Assembly (NCBI GenBank): GCA_903847935.1
Contig: CAINEX010000124.1
Location: 1-41,883, forward strand
DNA length: 41,883 bases
From: an uncultured Spartobacteria bacterium
GTDB taxonomy: Bacteria > Verrucomicrobiota > Verrucomicrobiia > Chthoniobacterales > UBA6821
Direction: 5' to 3'
Shown here: in pieces, positions 235 to 13,379 of the stretch
How positions within the stretch are numbered: position 1 is the first letter of the stretch
How the letters are laid out: the number at the start of each line of letters is the position of its first letter
Notes under the pieces: generated by a model
Database searches by the model: none
What the model was told of the DNA's origin: nothing
Seen by the model: the letters and a program-made list of their open reading frames with translations, nothing else
Translations under genes and position numbers: made by a program

Positions 235-460
235 AAAGGAGGTCTCTGATTCCGAAGAAGGAGTCCTCAGTAGGAAGAAAAACACCACCTAGAAGCTTAA
301 GGCTAGCCGAGGTTCAAAACAGGGGGCAAGGAGATTGAATGAATCAAAAAAAAGAGGAATCCAATTCTTTTCACGAGGAACTCATATGTTGAGGAGCGCG
401 AGTTATTGAGCTATGGATTTGCCATCTGGCCATGGCGAGTTCACCTTCACTGATTCATTC

Positions 461-1642
461 ATGAAAAAAGGCATCGTACAGGTAGCGCTTCTGGTGGATG
501 TCTCGCTTGGTTGCGGTCGGGGTATCAGCCTCGGTGTCTCCCGTTACGCGAAGTCGAAAGGGAACTGGATCTTCTTCCCCCATGAGCATCCCAAGCCGGA
601 AAAGCTTCCCGAGTGGATGGATCGGACTCGGGTCGATGCCGTCATCGCCTACAGGGCGAATCAGAACGTCTTGAAAAAGATCCGCTCACTCGGAATCCCT
701 GCAGTGAATGTGCACGGACACTTCCAAGATCCCCTGATCCCGGTAATCAGGACTGATGCTTCAGCTCTTGTGCTGATGACGCTCCGATTCATGGTCTCCT
801 GCGGATTCGAGCATCTGGCTTTCTGCGGATTCCCCGGTGTGTTTTACTCGGACCAGCGTGAGCAGGCGTTCAGGCATCATGCACGCGAGTTCACCGCATC
901 ACCTCAGATTTTCAGGGGATCCGGTGAGCCGATTGTCGATTACGATCCCTACCGTCACAAAGGGTACTCACCTGACGGAGGTCAGGGCCTAGCCCGATGG
1001 ATCCGATCGCTACCGAAGCCGGTCGGCATCATTGCCTGCAACGATATCCGGGCACTCCAAGTGATCAACGCCTGCAGAGAATCAGGTATCCGCGTTCCGG
1101 AAGAAGTGGCTGTCATCGGGGTCGATAACGATGAAGTGATCTGCAGTCTGAGCAGACCGACTCTCTCCTCGGTCGAGCAGGACACAGAGTCAATCGGGGG
1201 GCTCGCCGCGTCCCTGATCGACGAGATGCTGTCAGGGAAGAAGGTGCCTTTGTTCCACGAGGTGTCTCCCAAGGGGATCGTGGAACGGGAGTCCACGGAT
1301 GTCGTCGTAGCCGAGGATCCATTAGTCAATAGGGCTGTACGCTTGATTCGGGACGAAATCGCCTCTGGGATCACGATAAAGGAACTCTGCTCGGCGCTCT
1401 CCGTCTCACGCTCCAAGCTGGACAATGTTTTTTTTGAGAGTCTCGGACGAACTCCGTCCGAGGAGATCCAACGCACACGATTACGCAGATGCAGTGAGTT
1501 ATTGCTGACCACCGATCTGAAAATCACGGAGGTCGCAAATCGTTGCGGCTTCTCTTCGGTTACTCATCTGGGACGCTTTTTTAAAAGAGAGACAGGGCTG
1601 ACACCTCTTGAATTCAGGAGCAGTAAGGGACGATCGGGATAG
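461..1642 (+). CDS. XylR-type transcriptional regulator (LacI-like sensor + AraC HTH)
   Basis: Cytoplasmic DNA-binding regulator. Residues about 5-280 form a periplasmic-binding-protein-like sugar sensor of the LacI/XylR type: ALLVDVSLGCGRGI at the N-terminus, IIACNDIRALQV and then VIGVDNDEVICSLSRPTLSS, the usual LacI-family motif before the dimer interface. Residues about 288-390 are an AraC-type double helix-turn-helix (ITIKELCSALSVSRSKL, then ITEVANRCGFSSVTHLGRFF). I start at ATG 461 because homologues begin just before this sensor strand; an upstream in-frame ATG at 413 would add 16 residues, and neither start has a well-placed Shine-Dalgarno. It lies next to pectin methylesterase and polygalacturonase genes, so the ligand may be a pectin-derived sugar such as galacturonate (inference). 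The A-tract direct repeats upstream of the following genes are plausible targets. Confidence 0.9.
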   Translation: MKKGIVQVALLVDVSLGCGRGISLGVSRYAKSKGNWIFFPHEHPKPEKLPEWMDRTRVDAVIAYRANQNVLKKIRSLGIPAVNVHGHFQDPLIPVIRTDASALVLMTLRFMVSCGFEHLAFCGFPGVFYSDQREQAFRHHAREFTASPQIFRGSGEPIVDYDPYRHKGYSPDGGQGLARWIRSLPKPVGIIACNDIRALQVINACRESGIRVPEEVAVIGVDNDEVICSLSRPTLSSVEQDTESIGGLAASLIDEMLSGKKVPLFHEVSPKGIVERESTDVVVAEDPLVNRAVRLIRDEIASGITIKELCSALSVSRSKLDNVFFESLGRTPSEEIQRTRLRRCSELLLTTDLKITEVANRCGFSSVTHLGRFFKRETGLTPLEFRSSKGRSG

Positions 1643-1717
1643 GGTGGTAAGTTACAAGGAGGCCTGCCTTGCGTTTTAGCTGGGTCTCTTTGGAAGAAAG
1701 CCCAAGGAAGTCATAAA

Positions 1718-1748
1718 CAAAAAACGGCGATGCTTTGCGAAAAACGTC
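1718..1748. promoter_or_regulatory. Tandem direct repeat, candidate AraC/XylR operator (gene at 1792)
   Basis: CAAAAAACGGC (1718-1728) and CGAAAAACGTC (1738-1748) are near-identical half-sites exactly 20 bp apart, two helical turns, as AraC-family activators typically bind. A -10-like TAAAAATATA lies at 1777-1786. Similar A-tract pairs occur before the 7849 and 11856 genes. Assignment to the regulator at 461 is inference. Confidence 0.5.
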
Positions 1749-1757
1749 TGTTTCGCA
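1736..1757. promoter_or_regulatory. Inverted repeat TGCGAAA-N8-TTTCGCA
   Basis: A perfect 7-bp inverted repeat (1736-1742 and 1751-1757) overlaps the downstream half of the direct repeat, 34 bp before the ATG at 1792. It could be an operator for a dimeric repressor. A second small inverted repeat, GTAAC/GTTAC, sits at 1761-1765/1772-1776. Confidence 0.4.
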
Positions 1758-1791
1758 CGCGTAACTATGGGGTTACTAAAAATATACCCCC

Positions 1792-2754
1792 ATGAATATC
1801 TCATTCAAACAGGTTATTGCTCCACTCTGCTTCGGACTCATTCTCACCACTTCTGATTTTTGTTTTAGTCAGACAAGCGTTGTGACCGCTGGGATCTACG
1901 GATTCAGCAGGATCTCTGCTCCGGTTGGAGGAAGAGTGATCGCCCCGGTGTTCGTGAAGAACTCGGTTTACTCGGGAGCTGTGCCTGTCTCAGGTAGCAC
2001 GTTCCTAGCCGCCGGGATTGCCTCCAACTCGCTCTCCCCGTCCTCCTTCACCGACCGACCCAACGCCCCTCGCTACTACGTGGAGATCACTTCCGGAAGC
2101 TTCGCGGGTAATATCTACGACGTTGCCGGTAACGACACCAATGGGATCACGGTCTACGGATTGCCAAGCGCTCTCAACGGACAGTCCAACATCACAATTG
2201 CCGTACGCCCTCACTTCACGCTGGGAGATCTGGCTTCCGCATCGAGTGGACTCATCCCCTACAGCGACGCTCTTTCCCTCTACCAGACCAATAGCGGCCA
2301 AAGCACCTATATCTATTCGGGGACCGGCGTGGTGGATGGCAATAACGCAACAGCTGATCAGATCGTGCTCTACCCGGGATCCGGTGCTCTCCTCAATAAC
2401 AGTGGCAATGCCAGCTTCACGTTCAGCGGTCTCGTGAAAACGAACCAGACTGTCGTTCCCATTTATGCCGGAGTCACGCTTGTCGCCCCGATTGACCCGA
2501 CTGGGACGACGACCATCAACTCCGAGAATCTGGCTGCAATTCTTCAACCCTACGTCGATGCCGTCTCGCTGGTAACGACCGATGGGTCGCTCGGGACGAC
2601 GCCCTTCTATTCCGACGGAACCCAGCTTCTCAACCAGAATTACAGCCCACTGGATCCCTCCGTTGCTCCCATTGTTTCCTCGGGGAACGGATTCTTCATC
2701 AACACGACTCAGAATCGTCTCTGGACCAATGCAAGCGCCGTGAGCTCGTACTAA
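1792..2754 (+). CDS. Exported TIGR02597-like protein of unknown function
   Basis: 320 residues. The N-terminal signal peptide has hydrophobic segment IAPLCFGLILTTSDFCFSQ with probable cleavage near residue 26. The remainder is a beta-rich, Asn/Ser/Thr-rich secreted protein. The segments YYVEITSGSFAG, the VRPHFTLGDL stretch and repeated ADQIVLY/DAVSL motifs resemble TIGR02597-family proteins known from Verrucomicrobia; this is a resemblance from memory. It has no PEP-CTERM tail and no catalytic motif I recognise. The ATG follows CCCCC directly and there is no Shine-Dalgarno. It is first in line with the 2815 gene (60-bp gap), so the two are probably co-transcribed, which suggests a role at the cell surface during pectin use (inference). 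Confidence 0.8.
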   Translation: MNISFKQVIAPLCFGLILTTSDFCFSQTSVVTAGIYGFSRISAPVGGRVIAPVFVKNSVYSGAVPVSGSTFLAAGIASNSLSPSSFTDRPNAPRYYVEITSGSFAGNIYDVAGNDTNGITVYGLPSALNGQSNITIAVRPHFTLGDLASASSGLIPYSDALSLYQTNSGQSTYIYSGTGVVDGNNATADQIVLYPGSGALLNNSGNASFTFSGLVKTNQTVVPIYAGVTLVAPIDPTGTTTINSENLAAILQPYVDAVSLVTTDGSLGTTPFYSDGTQLLNQNYSPLDPSVAPIVSSGNGFFINTTQNRLWTNASAVSSY

Positions 2755-2814
2755 AACAAATCCCCCAACTACCCCCTACGCCCCTCCAAAGCTCCTTCCA
2801 CTCTCCCCCCAAAA

Positions 2815-5800
2815 ATGAACAAACTCATTCTTCCACTGGTCTTAGCGACCCTTCTCTCAGTAACAACGGGACTACGGGCCGCACCCACCAATGCCGGAAC
2901 GATCAATATCGGTACGGTGGCTGTGAATACCAATACGGGCTTCTTCCTCGACTCGAACTATGCCGAACTGACCAACGGCGGCATCCGGGTCGGATACTTC
3001 AGTGAAAGCGAGGCACAGATCAAGGCGCTGGTCTCCGGGTGGTCCGACTCAGCCGTCTTCAATAATACGAACGGGACGACCACGGAATACAGCACCGCGA
3101 CCTACAGTCATTACGAGCAACTGAACAGCCTCTTCACGCAGGTTGGCACAGGCGGTAGTAACGGTTCCACGGTCTCGGGATGGAATTTCTCCACCAATGG
3201 GACGATCGCGGGAACAAGTACCGGGGTGAGTTCCAGCATCGTTCCGGCCGGCACCCAGCTCTATGTCTGGGCCTTCAATATCCTGAGTTACACCTCGGCG
3301 GATTTTAATGGGACCACCCAGTGGGGACTCTTCACGGGGGAATCAAGCTGGCTTGCCCCTTCTGCAGGAACCATCTCGCTTGATTTGGCGCAGGTGGCTC
3401 CATCCGGTGTCGTGATTGGCTCCGATCTGGGGTCCCTTGGTTCGGGATCTCCAAAAGTGAACAGCGTCGCCCTTGCTCCCGAACCCGCCACATGGGGGCT
3501 TCTTCTTTGCGCTGTGTTCCTGCTTTCCATCGTTGGATTCCGTCGGGGCCGATTGGCAAAATTCTTCCACACGGGGGCACTTCTTTTAATCCTAAACTGT
3601 GGCGCTCAGGCACAAAATGATACCAATGCAGTATTTGTCACATTTCTTGGCACTCAAACTGCAAGCTCCAACATTCCCAATCAGATCTCAATCACCAATG
3701 TGGGCGGTGGCTGGAACTACAGTGCCGCCGCACAATATGTCGGAACAAACTGGAATCAATTCTTGAAACCAGCCACCCCAATAGGAGACGGCTCCGGAAA
3801 TTCAACTCTAAATTCGACGGTCTATTTTCAAACAGTATCGAACAGTGTGCTGAAAAACCCGGCTGGATCGAACACGACGATCACACTCTCCGGCACTATG
3901 ACGATCACAAGGCAGGACTCCTCAGCAACGCGAACAGAACCAAATAGCACCAGTGGCTCTCCTACAAATAGTTCCCTCAACCCTCCTGGGCTCAATGACA
4001 ACGGATGGCGTATCTACAGATATGAGAATTATACGACATGGACTTTTGCCAACCTCGTTACTAATTCAAATTACCTACTCTTTGTCTATGGGGCCTACCT
4101 GAATGGGGTGAACCATGCCGGATGCTATGTTAGACTTACTAACTCGAATATCTTTGATGTAGGTCAATCCTTTCTCGATGTTCAGGGGACTACGGATGGC
4201 AATGTTTTCCAAAACGCTGCTGGTGTGATTTCTCCAGTTCCCTCAGCGCCGGCAGGGCTCGTCTGCTCTAACAGCAATTTTTCTACATGGGGTGTGATCC
4301 CAGCTGTCTCTGATGTGAATGGTAAAATTATTTTTAACATGACGCGCCCAGGTGTCTCTTCTAGTTACTCTACCATAGCCACTAACTCTTCAGAGAATTC
4401 GACAACGGCATCTACCGGAGGATATTGGCTCAACGGATTTCAATTAATCCCATATCCTATATCCGCAATCACTGCCCAACCCTCAAGCGCTCCCAGTGTC
4501 ACCTCTGGCAGTACAGCTAGTCTGAGCGTGACGGCGACCAACTGGTATACCAACAGCAACATCACCTACCAGTGGCAGCTCAATGGGACAAACCTGACAA
4601 ACGGCATCACTGGTACTGGATCCACCATTTCTGGAGCCACGAGCGCCACGCTCAATGTGAGCAATGCAGGCTCCAGTGATGCCGGCACCTATACCGTAGT
4701 CGTAAGTAATCCGGGGGGATCGGTGACGAGTTCCAATTCCGTCCTTGCCGTCTCCTCCAGCATTATTGCTCCCTCGATCGTTACCCAGCCCGCGACCACG
4801 AATGTGAGCGCCGGAAGCACGGCCTCACTCTCCGTCTCTGCCAACGGGACCGCCCCGCTTGCCTACCAGTGGCAATGGAGCACGGATGGTACAAACTTCA
4901 GCAATATTGGCTCCAACAACGCCATCCTCTCGATCACGAACGCCCAGATCGTGAATTCCGGATACTACAACGTAACGATTACTAACAGCGCGGGGAGCGT
5001 GATCAGTTCGAACGCCGTACTGACCATCACCCAGAACCAGATCACCAACCAGCCCACGGGTGGGCTCTACACAAACGGAGCCTCCAACACACTCAGCGTC
5101 TCCGTCGCGGCAAATCCTCCGCCGAGCTTCCAATGGCAGCTCTCAACGGATGGATACCACTACACGAATATCACCGGAGGGACGGGCTCATCACTTCCCC
5201 TCACGGTTTCATCAAGTAACTCTGGCTTCTTCCGCGTGGTTGCCTCCAACAGTGTGGGTGCTACCACAAGTTCCGTGGTTTACTCCGGCATTGCCTCCAC
5301 GACACTCGGCACTCCAACCCTCTCCCCTGCAAATAACGCTGTGTCTGTCAATCGGGACACTCCTTTCAAGCTCACCTTCTCGGGGCCACCAATGGTGGGT
5401 AGTTCTGGAACAATCCGTGTCTATAATGCCGCCAACAATGCCCTTGTTGCCTCATATAACCTGGGGACGATGACGATAGCCCCCGGAACTTACCAGTCTG
5501 GAACCAACGCTCCTTACACGATTTTCCATCAGACGACCAAGAGCATTAATGGAAACTCGGTCACCTACACGCCGATCATCTCGCTGGGATCCCAACCCGG
5601 ACCGACAAATTTCCCGATCACTCCAGCCGGTTACAACTCCAACACGGCCATCATCACCCTGCCGGCCAGCACCACGCTCTCCTATGGAACCAGCTACTAT
5701 GTCCAGATGGATCCCGGTGTCTTTGTCGACACGAATGGAGCGGCTTATCCCGGCATCTCTGATACAACTTCGTGGACGTTCACGGTGAAGGCAGCAGGAC

Positions 5801-7641
5801 CCACGAATGGAACCACCAGTATTGTGGTGGGTAACGATGGGACTACAACCGATTTCTCAACCTTGGAGGGTGCAGCTGAGTTTGTGCCGACCTCCAACAC
5901 GACACCTACCACGGTGACCATCCATCAGGGATTTTACCCGGAGGTTGTTTATTGGAAATCACCCTATGTCACGATTCAAGGACAGGGACGGACAAATACG
6001 GTGATAGCCTTCATCAACAACAACTACGTCAATCCGAGCACGGCCACTCGGCCGGTTATGGACGTGGTGACGTCCCATGTCACCCTGCAAGACTTGACGA
6101 TCTATAACCTGACGCCCTTCAATGGGTCCCAGGCGGAATCCATATATACCTATGGAAGTAGCCTCAGCCTAGTTCGTGTGGGACTCTACAGTTATCAGGA
6201 CACCCTCTTGGCCAATGCGGGATCACTTTTCGTCTCGGACAGTTACATTGAGGGGAATGTCGATTACATGTGGGGTACCGCCGCCACCTTCATCCAACGC
6301 TCGGATTTGAGGGAGAATGCCAATGATGCGGGGGCTATTGCGGGCTACAGCCAGGCACGCAATGCCTCCAACGGCTATGGATTCTCTTTCGTGAATTGCA
6401 CCCTAGATGCTTATCCGGGAATCACTAACAACAGTAGTTCCCTCTCCCGAAGCTTCTCCGCCGAGTATCCTTTCAATCAGACGGCCTATATTAACTGCCG
6501 CATGGGCCCTCATATTGAGCCGGCTGGATGGCAACTTTATGATGGCACCGGCGTGACCTCACAGCTCTGGGAATACCAGAGCAGGGATTTGAGCAACAAC
6601 CTTCTCACTTCCAGTGTCCTTACAAACAGGCCAACCTATAATCGTTCCTTCTCAGTCAACGGAACCAAGATCGTTTATACGCCAGCTCAAAACAACTCAC
6701 CTGATGTCCTGGCGAATGGACAGATTAGTGCCGCTCTTGCCGCAATCATGACGAATTCGACCCAGATCCTGGGTTGGACGCCGAGCTCTTCACCTGACGC
6801 GGTGATCACTCCGACCAGCAATGCAATAATGATCTATCAGGGGTCATCATTTACTGATCCCGGAGCCACGGTGGTCGATCCCGCTGATGGAACGCTCTCC
6901 ATTGCGTTAGGAAATGGAACTGTTGATCCAACAACCATCGGAAGCTACACCGTGACCTATGGGTATACGAACTCACTTAGGATTCCAGCCCCCCCCGCGA
7001 CAATGACCGTCACGGTGGCTGCCATTCCGACGGCATCCATCAGCTTCAGCGGAACAAATGTTCCTTACAATGGCAACCCCCGCCCGGTTGCCATCACAAC
7101 GACACCGAGCAATGTGGCTGTCGCTGTCACTTATAACGGCTCTGCAACTGCACCAACTGCGGTGGGGGCTTATGCTGTCAATGCGAGTGTCACGGCCTCT
7201 AATTATCAGGGCAGCAACTCGACGACCCTCACGATCTACGATGCAAGAGCTCTCTGGCGCCAAGCATTCTATGGGACAACATCAAATTCCGGAAACGCAG
7301 CCGACTCTGCCGATCCTTATGGAACCGGATTGAGCAATCTCCAAAATTATACCCTCGGGAATAATCCGACCCTCCCCGCGACCAATCCTCTTGGGAACAC
7401 CACGTCATCGAATGGTCTCTTCAACCTGAGTTTCACGGCTGTGCCCGCAGGTAATGGAGTCGGTTACGCAGGGCTGACACGCTACTACGCCCTGGAGTCC
7501 TCGACGAATCCCGCTGGACCTGTCTGGTCTTCCATCAGTGGCTACGACAGCATCGCTGCATCGAACCAGACGGTGAGTTTCTCAACCAACACCACGAACT
7601 TCACCAACTGGTTCGTGAGGATTCGCGCCTGGTTGCAGTAA
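2815..7641 (+). CDS. PEP-CTERM protein fused in frame to multidomain pectin methylesterase (CE8)
   Basis: 1608 residues, two apparent proteins in one frame. Residues 1-246 are a complete PEP-CTERM protein: signal peptide (1-22), Ser/Thr/Asn-rich body, then PEP at 222-224, a transmembrane stretch and RRGR at 243-246. There is no stop codon. The next residues (about 247-266) look like a second signal peptide ending AQA|Q. Then follow an unidentified beta-rich domain (268-548, paralogous to 30-293 of the 7849 gene), three Ig-like domains (about 550-828), a Big_5-like Ig domain (829-998), pectinesterase CE8 (about 1000-1310), a DUF5011-like domain (1328-1400), an MBG-like domain (1404-1476) and a 130-residue C-terminal domain ending AWLQ. 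CE8 motifs are QAES (1106), QDTLL with D1129, GNVDY with D1150, and R1212; the usual LGRPW reads LSRSF. The enzyme would de-esterify homogalacturonan outside the cell. TTG 3553 could instead start the esterase separately. Confidence 0.88.
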   Translation: MNKLILPLVLATLLSVTTGLRAAPTNAGTINIGTVAVNTNTGFFLDSNYAELTNGGIRVGYFSESEAQIKALVSGWSDSAVFNNTNGTTTEYSTATYSHYEQLNSLFTQVGTGGSNGSTVSGWNFSTNGTIAGTSTGVSSSIVPAGTQLYVWAFNILSYTSADFNGTTQWGLFTGESSWLAPSAGTISLDLAQVAPSGVVIGSDLGSLGSGSPKVNSVALAPEPATWGLLLCAVFLLSIVGFRRGRLAKFFHTGALLLILNCGAQAQNDTNAVFVTFLGTQTASSNIPNQISITNVGGGWNYSAAAQYVGTNWNQFLKPATPIGDGSGNSTLNSTVYFQTVSNSVLKNPAGSNTTITLSGTMTITRQDSSATRTEPNSTSGSPTNSSLNPPGLNDNGWRIYRYENYTTWTFANLVTNSNYLLFVYGAYLNGVNHAGCYVRLTNSNIFDVGQSFLDVQGTTDGNVFQNAAGVISPVPSAPAGLVCSNSNFSTWGVIPAVSDVNGKIIFNMTRPGVSSSYSTIATNSSENSTTASTGGYWLNGFQLIPYPISAITAQPSSAPSVTSGSTASLSVTATNWYTNSNITYQWQLNGTNLTNGITGTGSTISGATSATLNVSNAGSSDAGTYTVVVSNPGGSVTSSNSVLAVSSSIIAPSIVTQPATTNVSAGSTASLSVSANGTAPLAYQWQWSTDGTNFSNIGSNNAILSITNAQIVNSGYYNVTITNSAGSVISSNAVLTITQNQITNQPTGGLYTNGASNTLSVSVAANPPPSFQWQLSTDGYHYTNITGGTGSSLPLTVSSSNSGFFRVVASNSVGATTSSVVYSGIASTTLGTPTLSPANNAVSVNRDTPFKLTFSGPPMVGSSGTIRVYNAANNALVASYNLGTMTIAPGTYQSGTNAPYTIFHQTTKSINGNSVTYTPIISLGSQPGPTNFPITPAGYNSNTAIITLPASTTLSYGTSYYVQMDPGVFVDTNGAAYPGISDTTSWTFTVKAAGPTNGTTSIVVGNDGTTTDFSTLEGAAEFVPTSNTTPTTVTIHQGFYPEVVYWKSPYVTIQGQGRTNTVIAFINNNYVNPSTATRPVMDVVTSHVTLQDLTIYNLTPFNGSQAESIYTYGSSLSLVRVGLYSYQDTLLANAGSLFVSDSYIEGNVDYMWGTAATFIQRSDLRENANDAGAIAGYSQARNASNGYGFSFVNCTLDAYPGITNNSSSLSRSFSAEYPFNQTAYINCRMGPHIEPAGWQLYDGTGVTSQLWEYQSRDLSNNLLTSSVLTNRPTYNRSFSVNGTKIVYTPAQNNSPDVLANGQISAALAAIMTNSTQILGWTPSSSPDAVITPTSNAIMIYQGSSFTDPGATVVDPADGTLSIALGNGTVDPTTIGSYTVTYGYTNSLRIPAPPATMTVTVAAIPTASISFSGTNVPYNGNPRPVAITTTPSNVAVAVTYNGSATAPTAVGAYAVNASVTASNYQGSNSTTLTIYDARALWRQAFYGTTSNSGNAADSADPYGTGLSNLQNYTLGNNPTLPATNPLGNTTSSNGLFNLSFTAVPAGNGVGYAGLTRYYALESSTNPAGPVWSSISGYDSIAASNQTVSFSTNTTNFTNWFVRIRAWLQ

Positions 7642-7769
7642 ATCATGCGATTCCTTGATTGGAGGAGAGCTTGGCGAAGTACTCCAACGATCTGTTTGTC
7701 ATATCTTTTTCTCCCAAGAGGGCCGGCTCAGGAGTCAGCTTAAGTCGTTTTTCTCCTGCAGTTCATTGG

Positions 7770-7805
7770 GAAAAATGACGAGGATTAACGAAAAATAATC
7801 GATGG
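7770..7805. promoter_or_regulatory. Tandem direct repeat, candidate AraC/XylR operator (gene at 7849)
   Basis: GAAAAATGACGA (7770-7781) and GAAAAATAATCGA (7790-7802) are spaced 20 bp apart. The downstream half-site continues to ATGG and matches 11791-11807 at 15 of 17 positions, at a similar distance from the start codon. A -10-like TAAAAATTA lies at 7832-7840, followed by CCCC and the ATG. Confidence 0.55.
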
Positions 7806-7848
7806 AATTCTCACTTGCCCGAGTTAATTTCTAAAAATTACCCCTCAA

Positions 7849-10800
7849 ATGAAGTTTTTTAGGAAAAGAGAGCTGTTGTTTTGGTTTGCAATTCTAGTCA
7901 TGCAGGGAGCTGTCCTTCCGTTTCCTATGCGGGCCGATACGAATGCGGTCTTTGTCAGTTACACTTCAAGCAGCAATGCCGTTAATTCCAATGCCCTTGT
8001 CACAGTGCCGGCTCCAGGGAGCGGGTGGAGTTACTCGGCGGCGGCCCAGATCGCCGGGATAAATTGGAATCAGATCAGCGCTCCGAACAACCCGATCCCG
8101 GATGGCACGGGGAGTGGAAATACCAACACGACCAACACGCTTTCCACCGCAAACAATCTCACGCTCACGAACCCCGCTGGGGTTGCCACGGGAATCAATC
8201 TGACGGAGCAAATTATCGTCGGGGCCACGTTGGATACAACAAACACTCGATATGATCCCAGGAGTGGTTCCTTTGCGGCCTCCAACTCGTTGGCCCCTTA
8301 TCCATTGATGTGCACGGGATGGAGGATCTACACCTCGGGCGTCCATCTCAGACACAATCTCTCCAACCTCTCCACGAATGCCCCGTATCTCCTCTACATT
8401 TATTCCTCAATCGCTGCGACAAACTCGTGGGGATCGTCGAATGTCTTGAGCAGCAGCAATGTATTTTCCAGTAATCCTAGTTACCTCGATATTCCAGGCT
8501 CACCCACGGGATATCTCTTCACCAACACGGCAGGAACAGTCTCCCCGATAGCACCGGCACCGGCTGGCCAGAGCAACACGGTCGCAGTACAGCCTTCAGG
8601 GTCACCCACCTGGGGAGTTCTGCTGGCCCAATCCGATGCCAACGGAAAACTGAGTTTCGATACGATGAAGGCAACTCTCGGTGCTAATAACGGTTACATC
8701 AACGGGTGGCAACTGATTCCTTATCCGCTCCCGGTGATCACCACCCAACCTGTCACCACGACCAATATCGCTGCAGGTAGCAATGCCGTGCTCAGCGTTA
8801 TGGTGACCAATTGGTACACCAATAGCTTCTCCTATCAGTGGCAGAAGGGTGGAGTGAACTTGAGTGACGGCACCACAGGGAACAGCACATCAATGTATAG
8901 CGGCACAACGTCGCCCGTGCTGACCATAAGTAATCTTGCAACTGGTGATGCCGGAAGTTTCAACGTCGTCGTCTCTAATGCCGGAGGTTCGGTCACCAGT
9001 TCAGTGTCCACGCTGATTGTTACCGGCGGCTCTTTTATAACCCTCAATCATTCCCTTAGTAACTCCGTCACCTTTTGGTATCAAGGCACTCCCTATAGAG
9101 ATCCGGGCGCCGTCGTGGTTGATTCGACTGACGGTACGATTCCAGAGATCGGGAGCGGATCGGTGAACACTTCGGCATTAGGTTCCTACACGATCACATA
9201 CCCGGCCTACACCGACTCCCTGGGAGTGATCACCCCCGGGATCAGCAGGACCGTCATTGTGGTTGCGGCTCCTTCACTTGCTCTTAACGGAAGCAATCCA
9301 CTCTCGGTCAACTGGGGTTCTGCTTTCAGCGATCCGGGGGCGACTTTGAACGATCCGATGGACGGCACGGTCACCGTGAGTGCCTCAAACTCACCTGACA
9401 CAACGAAACTCGGTTCGACCACCTTGACCTACGCTTTCACGAACTCCGTGGGGAACGTCGTCACGCCGATCCAGCGGATCGTGAATGTGGTTCCCGTGAC
9501 ACCGAATCTCCCGACCATCGGCAGCAACTCCTACGATATCACGATTCCAAACAGTTTGATCAACGGAGGGGCCGTGGCCTCCGTAAACAATGCCTCCTCC
9601 GTGAACGCCTCGGCCATCAATGCCTACATCTCCTATTGCAGCACCAACGGCGGTGGCACTGTGCTGATTCCGGCCGGAACATATGTTTCCGACACGATCA
9701 CGCTCCGCAGTAACGTGAACCTGCAGTTGGCCTCCAATGCCGTCCTGAAAAATTCGAACTACAACAACACGCTGGTCACGACAACCGGTTCGCCCAGTGA
9801 CGTTGCCATCACGGGATCGGGTGCCATCGATGGCGGGGCCACAACGACTGTGGGAGCCAATAACCTTATTGTCCTCACCTCCTGCACCCGGTTGCTGATA
9901 CAAGGGGTCACCATCAAGAACTCGGGTCATGAGCATCTTGTGATCCAAAACGGCAATCATGTGACCGTTGACGGGGTCACTGTCACCGATGTGAACACCC
10001 TCGCCGCCAATGGGGGAGCTTACCTCGCAAACACGGATGGCATCGACTACTACGGCCAGAACTTCCTCTTCAAAAACTGCAAGGTGGATGACGGTGATGA
10101 TGACATCGTGGCCAAGCCGCTTGGATCGGCCTGCGTCAACATCACTATCACGAATTGCACGGTCACGGCCGGTCATGGCATCGGTGTTGGAGGGGGCACA
10201 CAACTCGGTCTCACGAACTATCTGGTGACCGATTGCGGATTCACGGGAACGGACTACGGGGTCAGGATCAAGGCGGGGGACAATCCAACCAACAATCCGG
10301 GAGGGACGGTCTCGAATGTGGTCTACAGGAACATCGCGATGACCAATGTGGCGCGTCCGCTGGTTCTGGAGAGTTGGTATGACAGCGGTGATAACTTCCC
10401 CTCTTCTCCCACGGACTACAGCGTTTACACCACCAATTATTCCTCCAACAACACTTTCTATACAACGAATGCCCGTGCCACGGATGCCTACACACCGATG
10501 TTCCAGAATGTCTCCTACCTCAATATCACCATCACCAACTGCATGTATCCTGGTGATTTTGAGGGGATGTATACCATCCCCCGGAATATCAATGGCCTCA
10601 CCTTTTCGAATGTCACCATCAGTGTCGCCTCCAACGCGTCAACTTCGAGCCAGTTTAACCTTTGGCACGCCACCAACGTGACCATCTCCAACCTCAAGGT
10701 AACGACTTCGACAAGAAATGCCTATTACAACGCCTCCCCTTTGAAAGGCGTCTGGACCAATGATCTAGGGGGCCTGACCCTTCTTACTAATACGGTGACT

Positions 10801-11649
10801 CCGGCCACGGTCACCATCTCCAACACGAATCAGACCTACGACGGAACCGCCAAAGCGGTCACGGCAATCGTTTCTCCAACCGCTGCAGCGCCGTTGAGCG
10901 TGACCTATTCGAATCTTTCCTACGCGGTGAGTGCCACTCCTCCAACAAATGCCGGTTCCTATACCGTGGTAGGTTCGGTCACGAACACCGGCTACACTGG
11001 ATCCTCCACAGCAACCCTGATCATCAGTCCGGCCACCGCTCTGATCTATTTCAGCAACACAAACCAACCCTACAACGGCTTTGCCAGATCAGTCATCGTC
11101 AGCACGACTCCGGGCAACCTTCGGACCACCCTCACTTACGGCGGAAGCTCGAACGCCCCGATCGGAGTGGGCAGTTATGCCCTGCAATCCGCCGTGGTAG
11201 ATAGTAATTACTCGGGTTCAGCAAGTTCCACGTTGGTGATCTATCATGCGGTTGCCTCTTGGCGTCAGTCCCTCTTCGGAACGGGTAGCAATACCGGCAA
11301 CGCTGCCGATACCGCCACTCCCTATGGGATCGGCCTGAATAATCTTCAGGCCTATACGCTTGGGATCGATCCGACCCAACCCCTTAACAAACCTCTTTTG
11401 AGTATCAGCAACGCGGGAAGCAATACGGTGACGCTCTCCTTCTTGGCGCGCTCGGCGGGATCGGGTGCCGGTTATGCGGGATTGACCCGTTTCTACAATC
11501 TCGAGTCCACCACCAACCTCACCAACTCTTCCTGGAGCCCTGTCTCCGGTTACTCCAACATCCAGGCATCAAATCAGACGATCATCCTTTCCACCAACGC
11601 CTCGGGAGCTAGTAAACTGTTCTACCGACTCAAGGCCTGGTTGCAGTAA
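7849..11649 (+). CDS. Secreted multidomain polygalacturonase (GH28)
   Basis: 1266 residues. The signal peptide (1-29) ends MRA|D. Residues 30-293 form an unidentified beta-rich domain paralogous to that in the 2815 gene; then one Ig-like domain (294-392), two DUF5011-like domains (about 396-552), a GH28 beta-helix (about 555-980), two MBG-like domains (986-1062, 1063-1134) and a C-terminal domain (1135-1266) ending AWLQ. All four GH28 active-site motifs are present: NTDGID (728-733), DDDI (750-753), GHGI (775-778) and RIK (806-808), so hydrolysis of alpha-1,4-galacturonan is expected; exo or endo action cannot be told. It has no PEP-CTERM tail. The identical AWLQ ending shared with the methylesterase suggests a common surface attachment or secretion route. 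It has its own upstream direct repeat, so it probably has its own promoter. Confidence 0.93.
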   Translation: MKFFRKRELLFWFAILVMQGAVLPFPMRADTNAVFVSYTSSSNAVNSNALVTVPAPGSGWSYSAAAQIAGINWNQISAPNNPIPDGTGSGNTNTTNTLSTANNLTLTNPAGVATGINLTEQIIVGATLDTTNTRYDPRSGSFAASNSLAPYPLMCTGWRIYTSGVHLRHNLSNLSTNAPYLLYIYSSIAATNSWGSSNVLSSSNVFSSNPSYLDIPGSPTGYLFTNTAGTVSPIAPAPAGQSNTVAVQPSGSPTWGVLLAQSDANGKLSFDTMKATLGANNGYINGWQLIPYPLPVITTQPVTTTNIAAGSNAVLSVMVTNWYTNSFSYQWQKGGVNLSDGTTGNSTSMYSGTTSPVLTISNLATGDAGSFNVVVSNAGGSVTSSVSTLIVTGGSFITLNHSLSNSVTFWYQGTPYRDPGAVVVDSTDGTIPEIGSGSVNTSALGSYTITYPAYTDSLGVITPGISRTVIVVAAPSLALNGSNPLSVNWGSAFSDPGATLNDPMDGTVTVSASNSPDTTKLGSTTLTYAFTNSVGNVVTPIQRIVNVVPVTPNLPTIGSNSYDITIPNSLINGGAVASVNNASSVNASAINAYISYCSTNGGGTVLIPAGTYVSDTITLRSNVNLQLASNAVLKNSNYNNTLVTTTGSPSDVAITGSGAIDGGATTTVGANNLIVLTSCTRLLIQGVTIKNSGHEHLVIQNGNHVTVDGVTVTDVNTLAANGGAYLANTDGIDYYGQNFLFKNCKVDDGDDDIVAKPLGSACVNITITNCTVTAGHGIGVGGGTQLGLTNYLVTDCGFTGTDYGVRIKAGDNPTNNPGGTVSNVVYRNIAMTNVARPLVLESWYDSGDNFPSSPTDYSVYTTNYSSNNTFYTTNARATDAYTPMFQNVSYLNITITNCMYPGDFEGMYTIPRNINGLTFSNVTISVASNASTSSQFNLWHATNVTISNLKVTTSTRNAYYNASPLKGVWTNDLGGLTLLTNTVTPATVTISNTNQTYDGTAKAVTAIVSPTAAAPLSVTYSNLSYAVSATPPTNAGSYTVVGSVTNTGYTGSSTATLIISPATALIYFSNTNQPYNGFARSVIVSTTPGNLRTTLTYGGSSNAPIGVGSYALQSAVVDSNYSGSASSTLVIYHAVASWRQSLFGTGSNTGNAADTATPYGIGLNNLQAYTLGIDPTQPLNKPLLSISNAGSNTVTLSFLARSAGSGAGYAGLTRFYNLESTTNLTNSSWSPVSGYSNIQASNQTIILSTNASGASKLFYRLKAWLQ

Positions 11650-11770
11650 ATTTCGTAGACCTCATCGGGAAGGGTAGGTGTCGTTAGTGATCCCCCCTTG
11701 CACTTTTGGGATTCCCACGGGGCATCTGGGCTCTCACCGTGTTTCTTAGCTAGCCCGTGTGCAGATGCCT

Positions 11771-11807
11771 GAAAAAGCGACCTGTTCTTGCAAAAAATAA
11801 TCAATGG
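11771..11807. promoter_or_regulatory. Tandem direct repeat, candidate AraC/XylR operator (gene at 11856)
   Basis: GAAAAAGCGAC starts at 11771 and AAAAAATAATCAATGG at 11792, 21 bp later. The second half-site is nearly identical to 7789-7805 and lies 48 bp from the ATG (43 bp in the 7849 case). Likely the same regulator binds both; not tested here. Confidence 0.5.
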
Positions 11808-11855
11808 CAAGCCCCTCGATCCCAGCTAGTTTTAATAGAACTTCCCCCTCCCCAG

Positions 11856-13379
11856 ATGATGTTTTTGCTTTCACATTCCGCGATTTTCGCTGTTTTCAGT
11901 AGTGCTAAGCGGCAGTGGGTTTTAGGAGTTGTAATGCTCATCATGGGAGTCAGTTCACTTTATGCTCAGTCATGGACGGCTCCACCGACACTTCCCGTGT
12001 TCGGGAGCAGCGATTTCAACGTGACCATCTCCAATCCAAGTATCGACGGAGGAGCCACTGTTAGTACCAACAACACTCCCTCAATCAATGCTTCGGTGAT
12101 TGATGCCTTTATCAATTACTGTTCCACAAACCAGACGGGAGGACTTGGTGGGACGGTCGAAGTGCCTGCCGGGATCTATTCCCTGAATCCGATTATCCTG
12201 AAGTCGAATGTGAATCTCCAGATTGATCCCGGATGTGTCCTCTCCAATGCCGTCTACACCAACACGCTGATCACGAGTTCGGGTAAAACAAATATGGAGA
12301 TAAGCGGAGGAGGGGTTATTGAAGGAGGGGCAATGACCGCCCCGGGAGGTAATAAATTGGTCTACCTGCAGGGAGTCAACACACTCGAGGTCACGAATGT
12401 TTCCGTCGAGGATTCAGGAAATGAACATCTTGTGGTCGAGAATGACATTAATGTCACAATCAGTGGTGTCACGATTGCCGATCCCGGCACACTGAAGGCG
12501 AATAATGGAAATTATCTAGCGAATACGGATGGAATCGATTTCTACGGGACAAATTTCCTGATTAAAAACTGCTCCGTTAATGACGGAGATGACAATATCT
12601 GTGCCAAGCCAGCCAGCGGAGGATGCGCCAATATCGTGATCACCAACTGTGCCATCGGTGTTGGTCACGGCATCTCGATTGGGGGAGGAACAAGCTATGG
12701 ACTTTCGAACATGCTGGTCACGGATTGCTCCTTCAATGGCACGGTCAACGGGCTCCGTATCAAGGCGTGTGATTCAAGTTGGAGTAACAGTCTGGTTCAG
12801 GACTATGGGGGAGGCCTTGCCAACCCGGTCACCAATGTCACTTACAGGAACATTACGATGACCAATGTTACCAACCCGATCATTCTGGAAAGTTTCTACA
12901 ATGGGAATGACAACCTTCCCACCAATAAGGTTACTTCTCCAACAAATCTATCCTACTACCCTTCAATTCCCACGGTGGTCAATAGTACCACCCCGATGTA
13001 TGAAGGGATCTCTTTTGACAATATTCAGATCACCAATGCGGGTAATGCGGGGATCTTCGAGGGACTGAATACAACGACCCCGAATATCAATGGTCTCTCG
13101 TTCAGTAATGTAACTATCTCGGCGAGTCAGGAGATGGTCATGTGGTATGCCACCAATGTCAGCATCATCGGAGTCTCGGTCACTATCCCGCAAGATAACC
13201 CCTATGCGAATGCTTCCCCGATTGCCGGATCCTGGACCTACGATGCGAGTGTGACGATTGTGCCCGAACCGTCGACTCCGGTCCTTTGCTTGCTGGGTCT
13301 CGCAGGTGCTCTTCTCTGCTGGCGGTTCGGATGGTATCGCGGGGCGGATGTTTGTAAGAGGTCCGATCAACGACAATAA
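11856..13379 (+). CDS. Polygalacturonase (GH28) with PEP-CTERM anchor
   Basis: 507 residues from ATG 11856; a GTG at 11757 opens the same frame but would add a polar leader before the signal peptide, so I reject it. The signal peptide ends near SLYAQ. The GH28 beta-helix carries NTDGID (223-228), DDNI (245-248), GHGI (270-273) and RIK (301-303), all as in active polygalacturonases. The C-terminus has VPEPST (469-474), a hydrophobic helix and a basic WYRG tail, a PEP-CTERM signal handled by an exosortase not seen in this window. The catalytic part is clearly paralogous to the GH28 domain of the preceding gene but has no Ig, MBG or C-terminal AWLQ modules, so the two enzymes probably differ in cell attachment. 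There is no Shine-Dalgarno; the start is preceded by CCCCCTCCCC. Confidence 0.93.
   Translation: MMFLLSHSAIFAVFSSAKRQWVLGVVMLIMGVSSLYAQSWTAPPTLPVFGSSDFNVTISNPSIDGGATVSTNNTPSINASVIDAFINYCSTNQTGGLGGTVEVPAGIYSLNPIILKSNVNLQIDPGCVLSNAVYTNTLITSSGKTNMEISGGGVIEGGAMTAPGGNKLVYLQGVNTLEVTNVSVEDSGNEHLVVENDINVTISGVTIADPGTLKANNGNYLANTDGIDFYGTNFLIKNCSVNDGDDNICAKPASGGCANIVITNCAIGVGHGISIGGGTSYGLSNMLVTDCSFNGTVNGLRIKACDSSWSNSLVQDYGGGLANPVTNVTYRNITMTNVTNPIILESFYNGNDNLPTNKVTSPTNLSYYPSIPTVVNSTTPMYEGISFDNIQITNAGNAGIFEGLNTTTPNINGLSFSNVTISASQEMVMWYATNVSIIGVSVTIPQDNPYANASPIAGSWTYDASVTIVPEPSTPVLCLLGLAGALLCWRFGWYRGADVCKRSDQRQ

Follow-up and report, generated by a model that had tools for sequence, protein, structure and literature searches.

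An open reading frame joining a PEP-CTERM protein to an exported pectin methylesterase in an uncultured Spartobacteria bacterium, probably a derived gene fusion

The window analysed here is the whole 41,883-nucleotide stretch of contig CAINEX010000124.1. On its forward strand the ORF 2815-7641 starts with ATG and encodes 1608 amino acids, and it is open from end to end with no internal stop. Its product begins with a signal peptide and an exported domain of ~200 residues, continues with a PEP-CTERM-type tail and a second signal peptide, and then has a domain common to the gene at 7849 (the 7849 gene), immunoglobulin-like (Ig) domains, a pectin methylesterase (PME) domain and an MBG domain. The original prediction, which described this ORF as a PEP-CTERM protein joined in frame to a second signal peptide and a PME, was borne out, as the frame is open and all the parts were recognised. 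The features are listed below.

1792..2754, + strand: TIGR02597-like exported protein, first gene of a recurrent cassette (TIGR02597 E 1.5e-8, under the curated cut-off)
2815..2880, + strand: first signal peptide, MNKLILPLVLATLLSVTTGLRA (from the sequence, with the cleavage site placed by eye, and its signal-peptide score in a simple home-made classifier)
2881..3477, + strand: uncharacterised exported domain, the body of the PEP-CTERM protein (homologues G000:C42, G008:C118, G180:C90 and G202:C46)
3478..3552, + strand: PEP-CTERM tail (PF07589 match of 16.7 bits, under the cut-off), made up in the sequence of PEP (3478-3486), helix (3490-3537) and basic RRGR (3541-3552)
3514..3516, + strand: candidate internal start GTG, inside the PEP-CTERM helix (top internal signal-peptide start score)
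3550..3555, + strand: junction in the sequence, a CGA codon and then TTG, the candidate esterase start
3553..3612, + strand: second signal peptide, (L/M)AKFFHTGALLLILNCGAQA cut before Q (sequence; homologues with a signal peptide at the equal place; classifier)
3613..4458, + strand: esterase N-terminal domain, AT-rich, common to the 7849 gene and two distant loci (sequence comparison)
4480..5025, + strand: Ig-like domains, residues 556-737 (PF07679, PF13927, PF13895)
5821..6570, + strand: PME domain, residues 1003-1252 (PF01095 E 9.2e-26)
7033..7245, + strand: MBG domain, residues 1407-1477 (PF18887 E 1.4e-18)

The proposed resemblance between the second signal peptide and that of the 7849 gene was also confirmed. 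Read from codon 3553 (TTG), the ORF gives LAKFFHTGALLLILNCGAQA and, past the predicted cleavage site, QNDTNAVFV, while the 7849 gene starts MKFF...DTNAVFV and shows 45% identity to residues 264-648 of the ORF. This second signal peptide (residues 247-266, cut between AQA and Q) is less hydrophobic than the first. The PME assignment stands on a PF01095 match to residues 1003-1252 well above the cut-off (90.7 against 27 bits, E 9e-26) and on the PME-like motifs GFYPE, QDTL (1128), DYMWG (1150) and LSRSF (1210). By motif only, we take the last three to be the active-site Gln/Asp/Asp/Arg motifs of the enzyme; DYMWG and LSRSF depart from the usual PME consensus. The predicted structures were too poor for use, with a mean pLDDT of 52.5 for the PEP-CTERM protein and 46.7 for the esterase N-terminal domain. 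The surrounding region (413-13379) looks like a pectin-use locus, with an AraC/XylR-type regulator, the pectinesterase and two GH28 genes, one of which bears its own PEP-CTERM tail.

The tail of the first half shows the PEP-CTERM anatomy in order: PEP at residues 222-224, the helix WGLLLCAVFLLSIVGF at 226-241 and RRGR at 243-246. It also holds the most hydrophobic 15-residue stretch of the ORF. Its PF07589 score (16.7 bits) is below the cut-off of 20.7 bits, and a paralogue encoded on contig C42 of this genome also falls short (13.1 bits); the tail is identified from its motif anatomy together with homology, not from the score alone. As in the known substrates of the PEP-CTERM/exosortase (EpsH) system (Haft et al. 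2006, PMC1569441; PF07589, TIGR02595), a signal peptide and an exported domain precede the PEP, helix and basic cluster, and the genome encodes an exosortase elsewhere (PF09721 E 4.9e-49, G000:C73). The ORF differs from those substrates in that its tail falls under the Pfam cut-off and, above all, in that it is internal: 1364 residues follow it in frame before the stop, while practically all known tails lie close to the C-terminus, with a median of 3 extra residues past the motif (Haft et al. 2006; PMC1569441). For 119 PEP-CTERM motifs from 16 genomes of the genus, a count that leaves out three further listed motifs, the median number of residues between motif and stop was 4, and in 118 of them the stop came within 54 residues; the lone exception was the ORF 2815-7641. 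With 118 of the 119 ending so early, the long run-on here is not a matter of chance. When ~30 PEP-CTERM or homologous matches elsewhere in the order were read through to their stop, none entered the next gene.

Relatives of the PEP-CTERM half were found at four loci in four genomes, namely C42 of the window's own genome, G008 of the same genus, and G180 and G202 of the same class; a search of named genomes returned one relative, CAIKFI010000118.1 (uncultured Spartobacteria). At all four loci a stop follows the basic cluster, ~15-17 residues on at C42 and G008 and 0-3 residues on at G180 and G202. A TIGR02597-like gene comes first at each of them, as 1792-2754 does in the window, and these upstream genes are homologous (blastp E 4e-22 to 2e-79). 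The succession of TIGR02597-like gene and PEP-CTERM gene is conserved to class level. The pair (window 1792-3552; L011, L010, L154, L155) recurs across the class and may be a portable cassette.

A large exported protein comes next after the PEP-CTERM gene in both C42 and G202. The C42 cassette (L011/L138) resembles the window in its TIGR02597-like gene, its PEP-CTERM paralogue (~43-48% identical) and the large exported protein, there with a CBM96 domain. Unlike in the window, the C42 PEP-CTERM gene retains its stop, and the following gene, read in another frame, starts 26 nt before the end of the PEP-CTERM stop codon, so that the two overlap by that length. In G202 the boundary reads TGA-GCC-ATG, so that the next exported protein starts one codon past the stop and in the same frame; losing that one stop would give the architecture of the ORF 2815-7641. 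The G202 locus also carries tandem copies of the PEP-protein domain (G202:C46, L155:2471-3445 and 3459-4133), and the first, which has no PEP-CTERM tail, sits between the TIGR02597-like gene and the PEP-CTERM gene.

The esterase N-terminal domain is present in G247 and G130, in both cases encoded by a separate gene that has an ATG and a signal peptide of its own. The matching Ig and pectinesterase domains follow it in G247 (the pectinesterase domain was confirmed). This pectinesterase gene (G247:C17, L044/L156) is alike to the second half of our ORF in its N-terminal, Ig and pectinesterase domains, and even in having a PEP-CTERM gene upstream, which ends 143 nt before the pectinesterase ATG. 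It differs in being a separate gene, and the upstream PEP-CTERM protein is a different one that has kept its stop. With separate-gene homologues for both, the two halves are ordinarily separate genes.

A conserved joined gene was thus ruled out by the comparison of homologues, which found separate genes only, and a conserved polyprotein system was rejected on the same count of zero joined homologues. Of the three origins offered by the original prediction, a recently lost stop codon has the best support, since every homologue found for either half is a separate gene. We think it probable, judging from these comparisons, that the ORF 2815-7641 is a derived in-frame fusion, in one draft assembly, of two adjacent and normally separate genes. 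A PEP-CTERM gene (2815 to ~3552) and an exported PME gene (from ~3553) would have lost the stop between them by a point change or a small indel at a tight gene boundary; none of the recognisable features of either half is missing. The codon ahead of TTG 3553 is CGA, one transition from TGA, but that it derives from a TGA stop is no more than a guess. The mutational step is something we infer, as are the processing of the product and the freedom of the DNA from error. The fusion was seen in one genome only: no close relative sharing the locus was found, and a DNA search for the window locus in relatives matched only the paralogue in its own genome.

Next, we considered the base composition around the junction. 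The segment after it had been thought AT-richer by eye, and so it proved: GC3 falls from 0.654 ahead of the junction to 0.457 in 3553-4458 and is back at 0.662 in 4459-5799, and the value for 3553-4458 is lower than in any of 155 windows of equal size (minimum 0.517). Of the possible change points, the best pair lay near 3340 (3298-3502) and near 4522 (4456-4549); it raised the log-likelihood by 19.7, where shuffling reached no more than 11.7. The AT-rich block is real, but the recombination joint that it had been taken to reflect is weakly supported, as the block starts before the junction and ends near the first Ig domain. With its left edge at 3298-3502, the change in composition does not coincide exactly with 3553, and an exact recombination joint at that position is unsupported. 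From its start upstream of the junction, the AT-rich segment could instead reflect a larger recombination event in place of a simple stop loss. A foreign origin of the whole esterase is likewise unsupported, given that GC3 is back to 0.66 past 4458 and that the AT-rich N-terminal domain is equally placed in homologous genes. The AT-rich third positions are largely limited to this domain, whose paralogous counterpart in the 7849 gene has a GC3 of 0.608.

A different account holds that the genome truly has two genes, and that a miscalled or dropped base conceals the stop or a difference in frame. We regard it as a serious rival, if rather an unlikely one: the source is a draft genome in 140 contigs, and the homologues found are separate without exception. 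Stops in the other frames lie at 3587, 3593 and 3618, so that a one-base frame difference upstream would give short gene overlaps; such a change just before 3553 would expose the stops at 3587 or 3618, and the resulting overlaps would be like the 26-nt overlap on C42. Against a base error, single-base runs near the junction reach 4-5 bases at most, and the adjacency of the two genes matches the conserved cassette, which makes a chimeric join unlikely.

Internal initiation, also foreseen in the original prediction, is compatible with the fusion. The peptide beginning at TTG 3553 scored within the signal-peptide range and ranked in the top 1.2% of 495 internal start codons, ahead of 98.8% of them, in our simple home-made classifier (cross-validated AUC 0.91); a start at 3553 is thus possible, but GTG 3514 scored higher still. 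Homologues begin at about the place of TTG 3553, and a GGGG lies directly upstream of it, with a Shine-Dalgarno duplex energy of -5.0, although pairing of this strength or better occurs at 35% of random positions. The gene starts of the window make little use of such pairing, which is weaker there (median -0.9) than for positions drawn at random (-3.3), and their upstream regions are often C-rich. Moreover, none of the 15 window genes tallied starts with TTG, and with no stop in the way ribosomes from 2815 would still continue through. It seems unlikely to us that two starts make two proteins, the esterase arising mainly from TTG 3553 or GTG 3514 and the fused product being minor or degraded.

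Under the preferred reading, a fusion by stop loss, translation from 2815 must yield one chain, and its fate can be outlined from the predicted topology. The first signal peptide would export the first domain; the PEP-CTERM helix would return into the membrane, leaving RRGRLAK in the cytoplasm within a short basic loop (RRGRLAKFFH); and the second hydrophobic segment would restart export, now of the esterase. Cleavage by signal peptidase I behind AQA and by exosortase near PEP could then yield two separate exported proteins, to which the internal starts TTG 3553 or GTG 3514 could add free esterase. This predicted topology allows splitting by signal peptidase and exosortase; the splitting itself we infer. 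The earlier idea of a polyprotein cut by these two proteases thus survives as a possible fate of one fused product and fails as a conserved system, all homologues found being separate. We hold it to be unlikely that the product works as a polyprotein for two proteases, with a single basic cluster acting as the end of the exosortase signal and also as the n-region of the second signal peptide, an arrangement that would couple production of the surface protein and the secreted pectinesterase.

A processed polyprotein of this general kind is established in Bradyrhizobium japonicum, where the internal signal sequence of the cytochrome b/c1 precursor FbcH is cut by signal peptidase. As in FbcH, a single ORF here encodes two proteins that are exported or sit in the membrane, and the second is headed by an internal signal sequence, which in our case is predicted to follow a cytoplasmic basic loop. 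Unlike FbcH, the join occurs in one genome and is not conserved among relatives, its processing is predicted, and the proteins are unrelated. A join kept by selection, securing equal output of the PEP-CTERM partner and the esterase, is very improbable in spite of the recognisable signals on both sides of the junction, the workable topology and the encoded exosortase, as it is a single case with no joined homologue among the 119 motifs of the genus and the ~30 more in the order.

The probable fusion is a single-genome event and in other respects an ordinary one, a variation on what is known and no new system. If the sequence is right, it puts to a natural test the need for an exosortase signal to occupy the very C-terminus, as here a hairpin and a second exported protein come after the PEP-CTERM tail. 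It also illustrates how a tight boundary between a PEP-CTERM gene and an exported-enzyme gene, of which G202 has the same-frame form, could turn into a fused gene.

Finally, a further PEP-CTERM motif in the window's genome (L102, G000:C85:12580-12654, - strand) has an in-frame TAA inside it (AVPEPSF*ALFGLG...); with several other stops in frame, it looks like a decayed gene.
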